Source of the DNA: Polychytrium aggregatum
Lineage: Eukaryota; Chytridiomycota; Chytridiomycetes; Polychytriales
NCBI RefSeq assembly: GCF_025602895.1
Contig: NW_026516222.1
Span: forward strand, 1 to 64,000
Direction of reading: 5' to 3'
DNA: 64,000 bases
This document shows positions 13,185 through 19,612 of the stretch, piece after piece. Made by a program: the position numbers and the translations under genes. Numbering within the stretch: position 1 is the first letter of the stretch; each line of letters opens with the position of its first letter. Under the pieces are notes generated by a model. It searched no databases. It was not told the DNA's origin and worked only from the letters and a program-made list of their open reading frames with translations.

Positions 13185-13702
13185 GGCGGAAGGGGTGATG
13201 GAGTCAGGCCGCGAGTGAGTGGTGGCTGAGGCAGAGCGAAGAGCAGAAACGACGAGAAAGGGGGCGATGTCCGGGGGGTGCTGTTTCCCAACGATGCGAT
13301 CCGCAGGACGCGGGTTGGCGAAAACCGCACCACACAGATCCGATGTTTTGGAGCAGATGACACTCAGCCAGAACAAATGGAATCCCGAACGAGAGACAGA
13401 TCATGGAGAGTTGGCTCGGCGCCATCTTCTTGCCAGCATCAAAGCCCACGCGAACATGCCAGAGTCAAGCGGACCTCGATTGGCCAGAGCATGCTCCAAT
13501 GAGATTTCGCTTGGATGCGTTTCACGGAGTCAGTGTGAGCCTGGATTCGACAATGGTGAGTCGAACTTTGGCCGTTGGCGCAACAGCAACGCGCATCGTG
13601 TTGCACCAAACTACCGCGTCAACGCGCGTCGCCTCGGTGTTGTCCTCGTCATATATCAGGGTTGCTCCTTCCCGATCCCTCGTCACCAAGCGCATATTCA
13701 GC
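13185..13702. other. Intergenic region between the LRR gene and the DDE transposon gene
   Basis: The transposase frame stays open upstream of 13703 to 13403, but that stretch lacks family similarity. The region most likely carries the divergent promoters and the left, unrecognised end of the host transposon. Confidence 0.4.
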
Positions 13703-15327
13703 ATGGGACGAACATCCAAGAACAAGAAGAGGTCTCAAAAGGCCCGAGAGACAGTGCTCCGAAATGCGGCCATCCGGGCCGAGCTGAGGAGAGCCGTTCT
13801 CGCGGGCGCCTGTGGTCTCGACCCGGCTGGCGGTCCTGTCCATGAGCCTCCTTCCTTCCAGGACGAGACCACACCCGATGCTTCCCTGGCCGCACCAAGC
13901 CCTGCTGCGACCAATCTCCAAGATGTCACTTGCGCTCCAGATGAAGATGAAACCTCGAACATTCCGGCCACGAGCTTGGTCCGCGAGGACGCGGACGGGT
14001 GCATATCTTCCTTTCCTGAAACAGTCATTCTCATCGACGATCAGGATCCCCAGCCGAACCAAGCTCCTCGTCAGGCGAAGCAGTCCTCGCTTGCATGGCC
14101 GACCCAGCCCCCGCTCTCCTTAGCCGACGCTCATATTGATCATCGCCGACGACCCTACATCGGCAATTCGGCCAGGAGCCGACGACGTGCCATGGCCGAG
14201 TCTCGCATTCGAGCTCTTCAACACGGCTCCTCCAAAACGATCGACGAATACTTCGGATCACAGTCAAAGAAAGCCGTCCAACCGCCGCGGGCAACCCCAG
14301 CCAGAGTCAGTGCGGTCCAGATTTTGGATATCGACGCTGACCAACAACGCCGCAGAGTCCCCAGCGGCTACGTTCTGGACGTGGACGTTGGTTATCCGGC
14401 CAGCATTTGGGATGGCCAGCTCATTGACTTGGACGACATCCACCAGTCGGCCAAAGAGTGCAGCGGCACGAGCCACTATGCACGGAACGGGCAGCCAGTC
14501 CAAGTCCGCGACAATCAAATGTCAGAACCCGATGGCGACAATGGTGCCAGCGAGGAACCAGCATCCTCTGACGACGAGAGGCCCGAGACCCCTGAACAGC
14601 CGACGCACATGGAAATCGACTCAGCCATCGATCGCCTCGGAAGGGAGATACATGCTCAGGAAACAACCTCCGTTGGAAACAAACCCAGCTTTCGAAAAAT
14701 GGTATTCTACCACGCCATATTGTGCTATCTTCAAGAGAAGCGAAGCAACACTGAGCTGACGGCTGCAAAGATCGGGGTGGAAGTGGCTCGCCGTCTTGCC
14801 ATGGGAAGGTCGTTGCCATACTACAGTCGGATCATAAGGAAAGCAGCGACCGAATATGTGAAGACGGGGTTGATACCCGAGACATATACGTTGCTCCATC
14901 CAAGGGAGATCTCACTGCTGTCAGACAAATCGACAGCACGCAGGTGCTTGAAATATCTGGAGGATGACCAGCAGTGCAGCCCGACGATGTTTGCTCACTT
15001 TGTCAACACTGAAGTACTGCCAACGATCAATGCTGAGAGAAACCTTCGAGCAAATCGAGTCAAACACCGAAACATCACGGCCCGAACAGCCTCGTGCTGG
15101 ATGAGATTCCTTGAATACGTGCGTGTCAGAGACAGGAAAGACGCTCACGTCGACGACCACGAGCACTACGGCGACGTTGGCTATCGCCAGGAATATCTCC
15201 AGAAGATGAAGGCTTATCGCCGGCGAATGGCCCGATACGGCGGCGAGGGTTTCCAAGAGGCACTGGCCCCGAAATGCGAATCACTTTCTCGCATCGTCCT
15301 TGTCACGCACGGCGAGAGTATGTTTTA

Positions 15328-15353
15328 CAGGCAATCCAATAAAAAACGGGACA
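15328..15353 (+). repeat. Left terminal inverted repeat of the Tc1/mariner-Fanzor element
   Basis: The end starts CAGGCAATCCAAT and continues AAAAAACGGGACA. The second block recurs exactly, at the same distance, in the right end read on the other strand. A TA precedes it at 15326-15327. Confidence 0.85.
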
Positions 15354-15411
15354 CCCGGGTTTTTGACCATTCATCGAATATTTTGTTACCCAATGTTATC
15401 GCGCGCTGGCC

Positions 15412-16062
15412 ATGACCATTCGCCACACATCCGACTTTCGCACCGCCGCATTGCGATGCTACGCCCTCATCCATAGCCTGCGTAAGGTCGCCTCCATATT
15501 CAGTGTATCCAAGAGCACCATCCATCGATGGCACCGAGGACACAAGCCAACCGAGTCACCCAGAGTCCCAGCCCGCAGATCCACTTTCTTCGAGCAGGCA
15601 TGTCCAGTCATTCGCACCCTGATTGAACAGGACCCGTTCCAGACTGGTCCTGTGTTGCGATGCAAGCTCGAGTCCATCCTCCAGAGGAAAGTATCACTCT
15701 CACTCTGCCACACTGCCATCCACCGAGCAGGTCTCTCACACAAGAGGGCAACACACCTCTACAAGTCCAAGCGACTGGATGAGCGAGTGGCACAGTTCAG
15801 GGACCAGGTCCGCTCCATCGACCCACGACGATTCGTTTTTGTCGATGAGACGGGGATCAGGAAATCCATTTTTCCTCTTTACGGATACTCACCGAAGGGT
15901 GCTTCGCTTCGCCAGCGCAATCACATGAAGCACAAGTCTGTCTCGGCTGCATTTGCCATCAACCACTCTGGTGTGCTGCATCGAGCGCCGAGGATGGTCA
16001 GTGATCTTCACCCCACCTGCCTCGCCCGACTTCAATCCCATCGAGAACTTCTTTGGGGTTGA
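15412..16062 (+). pseudogene. Tc1/mariner-family transposase, internally deleted
   Basis: The ATG-started frame runs 216 codons. It has the N-terminal helix-turn-helix region and the first catalytic block RRFVFVDETG, then YGYSPKG. After NHSGVLH the expected middle with the second catalytic Asp is missing. The sequence jumps, in another frame, to SPDFNPIENFFGV (about 16023-16060), the block holding the last catalytic residue in this family. The called frame therefore ends in about 28 out-of-frame residues. An internal deletion with frameshift explains this, so the enzyme is not expected to work. The intact part matches copy 1 at the window's left edge. Confidence 0.88.
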
Positions 16063-16354
16063 GTCCCCCCCGATTTGGGGTTGAGCTCCTCCAATTTGGG
16101 GTTTAGTCCCTCCAATCACGCCGCCATTTTCACGCTCACATCCCTGGCTTGAACCTCTCGGCGATTTTTGAACAGGGTCACTTCCCCAACCAGCCCGCAA
16201 AGACGGGCTCCTGCTCTCGGGTATAAATGCCACACCTTCGTCCTGCTGCTTTCTTCCCTCATCTCGCCTTGATCTGATCATCGCGCTATTGTACGATAAA
16301 AAAGTCTCTGCTCTGACCAGTACCACTGGCAGGCATCCAGCATCCTCTGCCCCC
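16063..16354 (+). promoter_or_regulatory. Non-coding gap with a TATA-like box upstream of the Fanzor ORF
   Basis: The gap opens with three near-repeats of an atttgggg-type motif (16072-16115). It contains TATAAAT at 16222-16228, 127 bases before the Fanzor ATG. A core promoter here is inference from position only. Confidence 0.4.
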
Positions 16355-18402
16355 ATGCCTCCGAAGCGCAAGGGTACCGGTGATGGCCAGCCTCGGCCAC
16401 CCAGGCCCAAGAAAGCCAAGTCACAGTCGGAGCCTGTCTCTGGTTCGTCTTCTGACCCCACGCATGCTTGTTTCTCTGTTGCTCCGTCGCTCACCACCAC
16501 TGCTTCTGCAGATCCAATGGATGTCGATCCCACCGAGCCTGGTCCATCTACTTCCTCGAGTACCGGCAAGCGATGTCCCAAGTGCGATGGCACCGATCAC
16601 GAGCGAAGCAACACCAGCAAATGTCCCAAATACCGGCCCCTCAAGAGTTCTGTCGTCCCACTCGTGGATGGAAGGTCATCGGCCCCTCAGTTCAGCTGCT
16701 TCAAGCAGACCATGGATGGCTGTTGTCTCAATCCCGCTCTCCGCGACAAGATCCAGGCCACTGTCGAGGCCATGACCCAGATCCAGTTCGAGGCATCCAG
16801 GCTGCTCAACCTACATATCCTCCGGTGCATCGAGCAGGATCTTCCCGTCCCCGTCATCTCCAAGCCCACCCCTGCTTTCGTTCGCCAATGCTTCAGGATC
16901 GTCCAGGCCGATGCCCTCTCCCCGACAGGGGACAATGAGAAATACAACGAGCATCTGGTCGCTTCCTTTCGCGACTACCAGACCACTCGGCACGCAGACC
17001 TGCCTCCGGCCCCTCGTCTGCCTGATGGTGCTCACAGTCAGCTTCTCACCCTGGCTGTCAATGCCTATGCCACCAACTGCACCACCCACCTCGACCTGGC
17101 ATACTGGCGACTCCTTCGCCGCTTCTGCGCTGCCGTCTTCCCAGCCAACAAGCATAAGCACGAAGCCATCGAGGCCTGTCTCGAGCTCTTCGAGAAACCA
17201 GGGCAGACTCCACCCAAGGCCGATCTCGAGTTCCTCTATCCAGACTTTGGCCACGTCCTGGACGAGTTTCGGTACAGCAACGACCAGGACCGCTTCCGGG
17301 CCCTCCATCGCCTCTCACACCATGTGAGAATCCTCGCCCGAGACAAGATGATCGACAATGTCCACAAGTGGATCGACTGTGACATGCCCGCCCTCCGAGT
17401 CACCGAGCTGCAGCGCCAGGCCAAGCTGGACGAGCTCACTACCCAAGGCATTCCCTCCGACGACAAGAGGTTCACCACGGCCAAGTCTGAGCTCGGCACC
17501 ACCAAGTCCAAGATCAACAAGCTGGCATCCAGGATCAAGTGGTGCCTCAAGCAGCTCGCTCTTGACACTCCTCCGGCCGTGTGCACGATAGTTCCTCTAT
17601 GCACCACCAAGGCCAAGTACATCAAGATCGACACGGTCACTCTCTGGGAGCTCCTGGGTCCAAAGAAGCGCCTTGGACTCACCAGGGACAAGCTCAAGGA
17701 AGAAGGTGAGGACGGTGCCAACAACCAGGATCGTCTCTGGCGCAGTTGCTTCAAGCTGCGTAGTTCCCTCTTCCAAGAGCGGGATATCAATCACAAGCTG
17801 TTCAACTACGAGATCAGCACCGATGGCATTGGATGCACCATCGGTCTCGTCAAGTTTTTGCGTCGAACCGATCGCACCGAGACCATCGAGCCTCCTCCGA
17901 CTGCCGAGCAGCGTATCCAAGCCCACATCGGCGACCCAGACCCCAACCGCACCACTTGGATTGGCATCGATCCTGGAGTCGGCTCCATCTTCACCGCGGT
18001 CATTCCGACCATGTGTGCTGCATCCAAGACAGTCTCATTCTCGAATGGCCACTACCAGCACATGTGTGGCCATTGGAGAATGAGACCACCTCGTCTTGGT
18101 GGCTCGGTGCTTGGATGACCGCCATGAAGATGGAGCCGACTCCAGGATCGATGCCAATCCAAGTGGTGCGGTTGGGGTCTGGGTCGCCGATGTGCTCCAA
18201 GTGCCTGGAGCCAGTTCGGTTGGAAGGACTCGATGCGCCCAGTGTTGCGAATTCCCACTTTGTCAGGAGCCGCAAGAATCCCAGCTGCCGGACAGTGTGG
18301 AATCGCGACGTCAATGCGGCGCGCAACATGATCACAGTGTGCAGGTCGATTGTGGAGATCGGAGAGCGACCGGCGGTCTTCACTCGGAGGCTGCCAAAGT
18401 GA
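16355..18402 (+). pseudogene. Fanzor (eukaryotic TnpB homologue; RNA-guided nuclease family), disrupted
   Basis: Fanzors are RuvC-type nucleases guided by an RNA made from their own transposon. From ATG 16355 the protein starts MPPKRK (nuclear-signal-like). A Pro/Ser-rich stretch and a zinc-knuckle-like CPKCDGTDHERSN-x-SKCP follow. A long helical recognition region leads to WIGIDPGVGSIF, the RuvC-I motif with the first catalytic Asp (about residue 540). The frame then stops at 18118. In a different frame, 18196-18402 encodes a degenerate zinc ribbon (CSKC, then PSC) and WNRDVNAARNM, the RuvC-III motif with the last catalytic Asp. Between them the RuvC-II Glu region is missing and an inverted RuvC-I segment sits in its place. 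One zinc-ribbon Cys also looks lost. Not expected to be active. Confidence 0.9.
17923..18196. repeat. Head-to-head inverted repeat of the Fanzor RuvC-I segment
   Basis: The 80 bases at 17923-18002 reappear inverted at about 18114-18193 with roughly two mismatches. Inner arms around tctcattctc-type sequence are more diverged, with a junction near 18057-18065. Read on the minus strand, the right arm encodes WIGIDPGVGSIFMAV followed by residues that differ from the left arm. It is therefore a related but not identical Fanzor sequence in opposite orientation. It would fold into a long hairpin. Confidence 0.88.
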
Positions 18403-18500
18403 TCTGTTTTATTTCTTGTGGCTTTGCTTGACGCAAGCACAGCACATACTACATGTTCATGGAAACGGCTATATTGTCCCGTTTTTTTCTGAATAAAGTG
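18403..18500 (+). ncRNA. Candidate guide-RNA (omega-like RNA) region at the element's right end
   Basis: These 98 bases lie between the Fanzor stop and the transposon end. In characterised Fanzor and TnpB systems the guide RNA is transcribed from the 3' part of the gene through the transposon end, so that its guide comes from the flank. This placement is inference by analogy. No structure was computed, and the host flank would supply the guide. Confidence 0.35.
18475..18500 (-). repeat. Right terminal inverted repeat of the Tc1/mariner-Fanzor element
   Basis: On the minus strand the end reads CACTTTATTCAGA then AAAAAACGGGACA. It mirrors the left end in spacing and in the second block, and is followed by TA at 18501-18502. 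Confidence 0.82.
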
Positions 18501-19612
18501 TACACGAACAAATCCATCGACGCCTTGTGGCAACGCCAGGGCAAGGGCAAACCGAAGCCAAGGTGCCCGAGACGCCGCCTTATGGTCAGTGCATTTGTTT
18601 GTGAATGTCATGGGCTGCTCAAGATCGACAAAGCCCACGACTCCACCAGAATCGTCCAGCCAGGAAACGGAAGCTGGTGGGCTTGCACGTACTTGGTCGC
18701 CCAAGTGAAGGCAGCGATCCCGATATCCGAGCAGATGCATCCGGACTGCGTGGCACTGTTCCAGTTCGACGGCTCTCCAAACCACAGAGCTTTCGCCGAC
18801 GATGCTCTCAGAGTGGAGAACATGTCACTCTGGGCCGGTGGCGGTGAGAAGCTTCGATCGACGACATTCGGACCGGATCGCATCCCGCAGTCGATGTGCT
18901 TTCCGGATGATTTTGATAATGAAGGAGTGGAGGTAAGGGAGCTGCTCTCGCGGGGGGGGGTTCGTTGACCCGGCCGACCGCATCTGATCAACCATATGTC
19001 CCGCAGGGCTCCTCCGTGAAACTGTGGGCTGGGCAATCCAAAGGTCTGCGCATCGTTCTGGAAGAACGAGGACTGTGGGTCGATGGTCTGAAGCTGACCT
19101 GCAAGACCAACTCGAGGGAACCCGATGGTGCCGAAAGCCGAGCCCACACTCCTTGCTGTGCCAGGCATCTGATGGCTACCCAGCCAGATTTCCAGAAGCA
19201 AGAGCCGTGGATCGATGAGACCATCCACAGCCACGGCCACAAGGTCATCGTTCTCCCAAAGTCTCACTGCGAGCTGAACTTTATCGAGGGTTTCTGGCGC
19301 GATGCCAGGCAATTCACCAAGGACCATGGCCTCAACAGCCTCCTGGATCTCAAAGAGGTGCTCCCACGGGCCCTGAACCAAGCGGGAGATGTCCAACGAG
19401 TCCGGCGGCATGCTCAAGCGTCATGGAAGAACATGCGGGCCTACAGACGAGGAATGGCATTCACTGATGTGATGGCCATCGCAATGGAAGAGCATAGCTC
19501 CCATCGGAAGTCATGCGGAGCTGTCGATGCCGTGCTGGACGAGGACGACACAGCTGATACCGACTCTGAGTGCGAACCGGGCTGTGATGTCGATAGCGAT
19601 TCGGGCTGGTGA

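Follow-up and report, generated by a model that had tools for sequence, protein, structure and literature searches.

The first 64,000 nucleotides of contig NW_026516222.1 of the chytrid Polychytrium aggregatum (assembly GCF_025602895.1), referred to here as the window, contain a Tc1/mariner element at positions 15326-18502, both TA duplications counted. The initial annotation gave nearly the same span. This element is probably best understood as a dead copy of a large, recently active Tc1/mariner family carrying a Fanzor1 nuclease gene, in which a retention model guided by TTA explains a T found on one side only of the insertion sites. The initial annotation described a Fanzor as cargo of a Tc1/mariner element; the kind of element was recognized correctly, and the Fanzor of the window copy proves to be a pseudogene. 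Fanzor1 in mariner elements is already known from the parts of PMC3627910 dealing with these elements, and the value of the Polychytrium family lies in two nuclease halves on one transposase. With hundreds of copies and two Fanzor halves joined to nearly the same transposase, the shares of nuclease and transposase in site choice become separable by comparison. If the flank rule follows Fanzor, the genome holds a footprint of the target-adjacent motif (TAM), and the retention model is testable in eukaryotes.

The 64.7-Mb assembly (418 contigs) was searched with the Fanzor part of the window element and with both ends. With at most 3 mismatches, 386 left and 276 right ends are found, compared to 0 for a reversed-pattern control. 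The Fanzor part gives 79 scored matches from 433 first-look candidates, with 93-100% identity and its own copy included. The 70 loci sampled are made up of 59 of these 79 matches, ten elements chosen from the end lists (one full-size, nine short), and the contig start. Both ends were located in 65 loci, belonging to 56 full-size (3177-3744 bp) and 9 short elements (283-1114 bp), and the TA is kept at 64/65 left and 64/65 right ends. In 63 of the 65 elements, a T stands before the left TA (C and A once each); with identical flanks counted once, this holds at 54 of 56 distinct sites. As background, T precedes TA in 13.2% (0.132) of 2492 cases in the window. Exact left ends of the TACRGGCRATCC form (CAGG/CGGG) have T in 197 cases and a different base in 10 genome-wide, these 207 ends being counted irrespective of element type. 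Position -2 shows a weak preference (T 23, A 17, G 11, C 5; p 0.009).

The right side shows no mirror bias. A follows the right TA at 7/56 sites, the background value; genome-wide, exact right ends are followed by A at 40 places, and in 17 of about 100 among the matches listed. A transposase favoring TTA in either orientation would make A after the right TA equally common, whereas A stays at background. The T itself most simply derives from the target. The window element interrupts a transposase-like host gene (13361-15327, + strand) that resumes at 18503 with the frame intact. When the flanks are joined in a script, the host frame is open to codon 810 across the insertion site at codon 656; removal of one base brings a stop after codon 723. 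The simplest reading is thus a TA duplication with the T as part of the target; the frame test disfavors a T inside the element without proving the point. A T on one side is as expected if 5'-TTA is the TAM of the nuclease; we infer that the TAM would be 5'-TTA and that the guide would begin after the right TA. Sections 7 and 8 of Saito et al. (PMC10432273) describe a comparable situation in Spizellomyces punctatus, where a conserved CA adjoins the left repeat on its left side, both in full and in "ghost" elements, and give CATA as the TAM measured there.

A second Fanzor group allows the contributions of the two proteins to be compared. When the C-terminal part of P0001, a deposited Polychytrium gene model, is used as the query, 150 scored matches of 1102 first-look candidates are obtained, with frames of up to 1011 aa; this group is called type II here and the window family type I. 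Two tandem N-terminal zinc knuckles occur in both copies read, L071 (C5:143500-148300) and L073 (C24:71900-76400). The transposase half of L073 is that of the window family (1014 nt with 96.5% identity to the intact type I copy L030; 304/310 residues), whereas its Fanzor of 884 aa differs, with 341/778 aligned residues identical (44%). The right end of L073 also differs, and 210 ends of its form are found with at most 2 mismatches. Eight left ends were assigned to type II, six of them through a right end of that type and two (C2, C35) solely through a Fanzor piece of that type; the base before the left TA is T in 4, C in 2, and G and A in one each. Seven left ends of type II form that are not tied to an element, partly at shared sites, are excluded from this count (T 4, A 3). 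The 4/8 differs from the 54/56 of type I (Fisher p 0.0015) and from 197/207 (p 7e-4). Type II is represented by few elements and is heterogeneous: 141-bp probes placed at the expected distance, which miss left ends at other distances, reveal a mariner left end in 2/20 long-frame type II genes. Four of the other 18 (L094-L097) possess a different, mutually common 5' half with a 43-53-bp transposase scrap at the junction and constitute a third architecture.

Both genes of the family are present in unbroken form outside the window, as the initial annotation had guessed for intact relatives. Fanzor frames of 786-790 aa are unbroken in 39/56 full-size copies, and transposase frames of exactly 310 aa are unbroken in 12/56; some elements contain both. 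The ratio of nonsynonymous to synonymous polymorphism (pN/pS), calculated against the consensus for the 56 copies, amounts to 0.30 in Fanzor and 0.22 in codons 1-250 of the transposase. These values point to purifying selection on both genes, and the family appears large and recently active, unlike the dead window copy. The nine short derivatives sampled, of 283-1114 bp and falling into four size classes, all retain both ends, with no fewer than 168 bp on the right and 99 bp on the left.

The proposed mechanism combines these observations with the established biology of Fanzor and TnpB, from which the steps between guide RNA and repair are inferred. The transposase would excise the element and insert it at TA. 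Transcription of the right end would yield an omega-RNA with the right repeat and the TA as part of its scaffold and the right flank as its guide. Fanzor would then recognize TTA together with the right flank, which are joined solely in the empty site, either before insertion or after excision. Cutting of the element-free site would force repair from the element-bearing copy, and insertions with TTA on the left would thereby be retained, which would produce the one-sided T. Short derivatives that lack intact genes would depend on proteins supplied in trans and, according to this proposal, keep the right end because the guide is encoded there. The candidate omega-RNA scaffold of the window copy (18353-18502, + strand) comprises the end of the open reading frame (ORF), the 3' region, the right repeat, and the TA. 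These last 150 nt are predicted to fold more stably than 200/200 shuffles (z -3.27). In the predicted folds, the right repeat is base-paired, and the T of the TA, if not both bases, is paired as well. The 120 nt of a type II right end are unremarkable (z -1.69). For other Fanzor1s, the part of PMC10711439 concerned with the RNA reports the terminal inverted repeat and target-site duplication within the scaffold. The predicted guide in the window is the right flank at 18503-18520 (+ strand), with its length taken by analogy with SpuFz1 as described in section 7 of PMC10432273.

The affiliation of the nuclease-like gene with Fanzor1 is supported by profiles and by the arrangement of its motifs. 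Pfam model PF07282 matches the intact copy with 2.7e-9, above the curated cut-off, and the C-terminal piece of the window copy with 3.7e-5, just under it. A family profile was built from 8 sequences, namely, five copies, one protein of type II, and two distant relatives that a search with the RuvC half had returned. Over the RuvC half, this profile recognizes Fanzor1 proteins of solved structure, with SpuFz1 (8gkh) at 9e-10 and the Parasitella Fanzor1 at 6.6e-8; the Guillardia Fanzor1 is found at just 0.025, and two TranC chains are found at 0.0015. The initial annotation had made its reading depend on matches to Fanzor/TnpB models, and these were obtained with PF07282 and the family profile. 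The search with the RuvC half returned four proteins, namely, two Polychytrium gene models and two relatives from short contigs; a search of viral contigs with one relative, P0003, found no further relative. An AlphaFold2 model of P0003 is too poor for use (mean predicted local distance difference test score of 36).

The RuvC-I motif GIDPG stands at residue 537 of the intact copy. The Fanzor1 fingerprint given in the relevant section of Yoon et al. (PMC10711439) consists of DPG and an alternative catalytic Glu six residues before a zinc finger, and the intact copy shows E715 followed by C722-x2-C725. E715 is invariant in the 8-sequence alignment, is aligned with the Glu stretch of SpuFz1, and is absent from the window copy. 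The search pattern given there is not matched literally: the spacing from DPG to Glu is 173 residues compared to 120-160, and the second cysteine pair, counted by eye, is CxxxxC. Carriage by an IS607 element with its serine recombinase, as for Fanzor2, is contradicted by the co-encoded DDE_3 transposase and the TA duplications; no recombinase was sought elsewhere. A methyltransferase function, an idea from the passage of PMC3627910 on Fanzor, is set aside given the nuclease evidence of later papers.

The transposase of the family matches DDE_3 with 5e-24 and HTH_23 only under the cut-off. Its triad, read from motif positions, is D145, D221, and E256 (DD34E, with 34 residues between the last two). 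Together with TA duplications and terminal inverted repeats, DDE_3 and the triad place the element in Tc1/mariner (IS630), the window copy being broken in this gene.

Several observations weigh against a TTA-guided retention by Fanzor1 or against parts of it. With a single sequence, SpuFz1 is the top solved structure with an E value of only 0.36, a search with the whole protein against 5.8 billion proteins gave no match at an E value of ≤1e-3, and the NCBIfam TnpB models match far under their cut-offs (guided_TnpB 5e-6). The sample was drawn mostly by Fanzor similarity, so the count of unbroken Fanzor genes may be too high, and the nine short derivatives may trace to as few as four deletions. 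At the right end, the last 104 nt alone give a z of -1.68, with 12/200 shuffles as good. The copies are too alike for covariation to be usable, and although synonymous divergence is low in the 3'-terminal part of the ORF (0.026), other blocks are equally low or lower (0.014-0.024), so that an overlapping RNA is not clearly indicated. Type II elements are enriched in T over background (4/8 versus 0.132; p 0.014), so the transposase may contribute to the flank rule.

This last point leads to the explanation that the T before the left TA is the target preference of the transposase itself, imposed in one orientation by differing repeats and without involvement of Fanzor. The two repeats agree at just 19/26 positions, which makes the ends distinguishable, and the seven untied type II-form ends mentioned above include four with T. 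This explanation nevertheless appears unlikely: the type I and type II transposases agree in 304/310 residues in the one pair compared, yet T stands at 4/8 in one type and 54/56 in the other, and the T sits opposite the guide-encoding end, as required of a TAM. Less plausible still is a Fanzor that travels as passive cargo and brings the element no benefit. Many copies are broken, the window copy included, and short derivatives exist without the Fanzor gene. Against this, Fanzor is unbroken in 39/56 copies despite being 2.5 times as long as the transposase, which is unbroken in 12/56 (in a sample biased toward Fanzor), and its pN/pS of 0.30 speaks for constraint. Retention guided by TTA stays the preferred reading.

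Elements at the same site differ more than their surroundings. In nine locus pairs with both flanks in common, the flanks differ at 8/6096 positions and the elements differ at 676/27122, gaps aside. L020 and L028 are near-identical inside (99.6%), and the other eight pairs are 95.7-98.1% alike (2-4% different), compared to 94.8-96.6% for 25 random copy pairs. The partner of the window element on contig C405 is identical over 150 bases on each side and shares its private 3'-side rearrangement. Between 15388 and 17933, nearly 80 columns and a 134-column gap differ, with one difference from there to the end. An 8-kb comparison of contigs C113 and C405 gives ∼100% identity, and the two are therefore read as haplotypes. 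In the pair L015/L025, 67/68 differences lie within 564-1545. Such patterns look like conversion between dispersed copies that is confined to the element. It is doubtful, though a point to be taken seriously, whether they could instead be an assembly artefact in which long-read correction mixed repeat copies. The near-identity of the contigs over 8 kb and the hundreds of near-identical copies favor such mixing. It fits less well with a pair of derivatives of 384 and 383 bp that differ at 8 positions between flanks alike at 500/500, with another pair of unequal length (3480 versus 1114), with the confinement of all but 1 of 68 differences to 564-1545 in L015/L025, and with the window/C405 pair, where the private rearrangement is shared and yet the 5' 2.6 kb differs.

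Repair triggered by Fanzor as the cause of this rewriting is speculative. Taken together, the propositions that the Fanzor module rather than the transposase decides which insertions survive, that the swap of the Fanzor half loosened the TTA rule, and that repair rewrites and spreads elements between haplotypes form a conjecture that is more probably wrong than right and is offered as tentative. If Fanzor decides survival and repair rewrites elements, the family would represent a naturally occurring eukaryotic system of RNA-guided copy-back. Saito et al. (PMC10432273) state that it is unknown what Fanzor cleavage does biologically.

The closest known system is SPu-1 with SpuFz1 from S. punctatus. 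According to the sections on these elements in PMC3627910 and PMC10432273, it likewise resides in a chytrid and shows a Fanzor1 with an Asp-Glu-Asp triad, TA duplications, inverted repeats of ∼30 bp, a conserved motif left of the left repeat, and derivatives without Fanzor; SpuFz1 is also the best solved-structure match to the family profile (9e-10). In these descriptions, SPu-1 has a single ORF, whereas the Polychytrium element also holds a transposase gene; the TAM is CATA compared to the predicted TTA; and copies are more numerous here, with 276-386 ends compared to 42 Fanzor and 134 ghost loci reported for SPu-1. PUl-1 and PGv-1 combine Fanzor1 and a Mariner transposase in one TA-flanked element (PMC3627910, section 7). 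The same source describes four related mariners with a common transposase half and a differing 3' half, as found here; these are single-copy elements and ∼78% alike over the common half, whereas Polychytrium contains two Fanzor halves on a 96.5% identical transposase half in one genome. The right element RNA (reRNA) of the SfAV Fanzor1, as presented in PMC10711439, resembles the candidate omega-RNA in that the repeat and target duplication are predicted within the scaffold; it differs in that its transposon family is unassigned there and the RNA was sequenced, compared to predicted only here. For the TnpB of IS200/IS605, the discussion of retention in PMC11870625 proposes a role as a drive in which the element-free site is cut and the element-bearing copy wins; that system is bacterial and plasmid-borne and has another transposase. 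A literature search covering few subscription papers found none naming Polychytrium together with Fanzor. The initial annotation had held this element and its layout to be new, which applies to the family within the known Fanzor1-in-mariner elements; the window copy itself is ordinary.

The window copy begins with the left TA duplication at 15326-15327, preceded by T15325, so that 15325-15327 form the TTA predicted to act as the TAM. The left terminal inverted repeat of 26 bp follows at 15328-15353 (+ strand); the right repeat lies at 18475-18500 (- strand), and the right TA lies at 18501-18502. The TA-flanked element with an IS630-type transposase described by the initial annotation is thereby borne out, with the DDE_3 transposase present as a remnant. 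This pseudogene (15412-16062, + strand) has 216 codons and an internal deletion near 15976-15983; compared to the intact copy, part of the DDE domain is gone, and ∼127 bp are missing after L030 position 658. Three copies of GGGGTTGAG-type repeats (16052-16113, + strand) occupy the place of the transposase 3' end in full-length copies. These repeats replace the transposase C terminus in a subfamily comprising the window copy and 3.63-kb copies. Many of the sampled copies belong to this subfamily, so it may move in trans.

The first part of the Fanzor1 pseudogene (16355-18118, + strand) spans 587 codons from the ATG and contains a basic start, a zinc knuckle, a middle part, and RuvC-I. The start resembling a nuclear localization signal (MPPKRK...RPKKAK) and the zinc knuckle noted by the initial annotation are both present, the latter with the spacing C-x2-C-x4-H-x7-C from C74 in the intact copy. 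The RuvC motifs it reported are also there, as GIDPG at 17963-17977 (+ strand) and NRDVNAA (RuvC-III) at 18301-18321 (+ strand), but they lie in different reading frames, and the region that held the catalytic Glu has been lost. An inverted 129-bp segment (18066-18194, - strand) replaces 442 bp of the intact copy L030 (2989-3430), the region of RuvC-II and the catalytic Glu codon (3412). The C-terminal piece with zinc finger and RuvC-III follows in the other frame (18191-18402, + strand; stop at 18400-18402). With RuvC-I and RuvC-III in different frames, the copy is unable to make one protein; judged by its reading frames, it is dead and its Fanzor is a pseudogene. An Rfam search of the window matched no family.

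Some observations concern the surroundings of these elements. The interrupted host gene (13361-15327, 18503-18968) is found with 73-74% identity at five other places in the genome. In the gene model P0001, a C-terminal piece of Fanzor is joined to an adenylation/reductase enzyme, which is probably an annotation join across a transposon remnant and possibly a real fusion. Two sampled loci, L029 and L051, have their right flank in common (269/269 aligned bases, 4 gaps) next to left flanks that are unrelated, a pattern suggestive of recombination through the element. The window also holds a second, cut-off copy of the left 627 bp of the element (1-627, - strand), which runs off the contig start.

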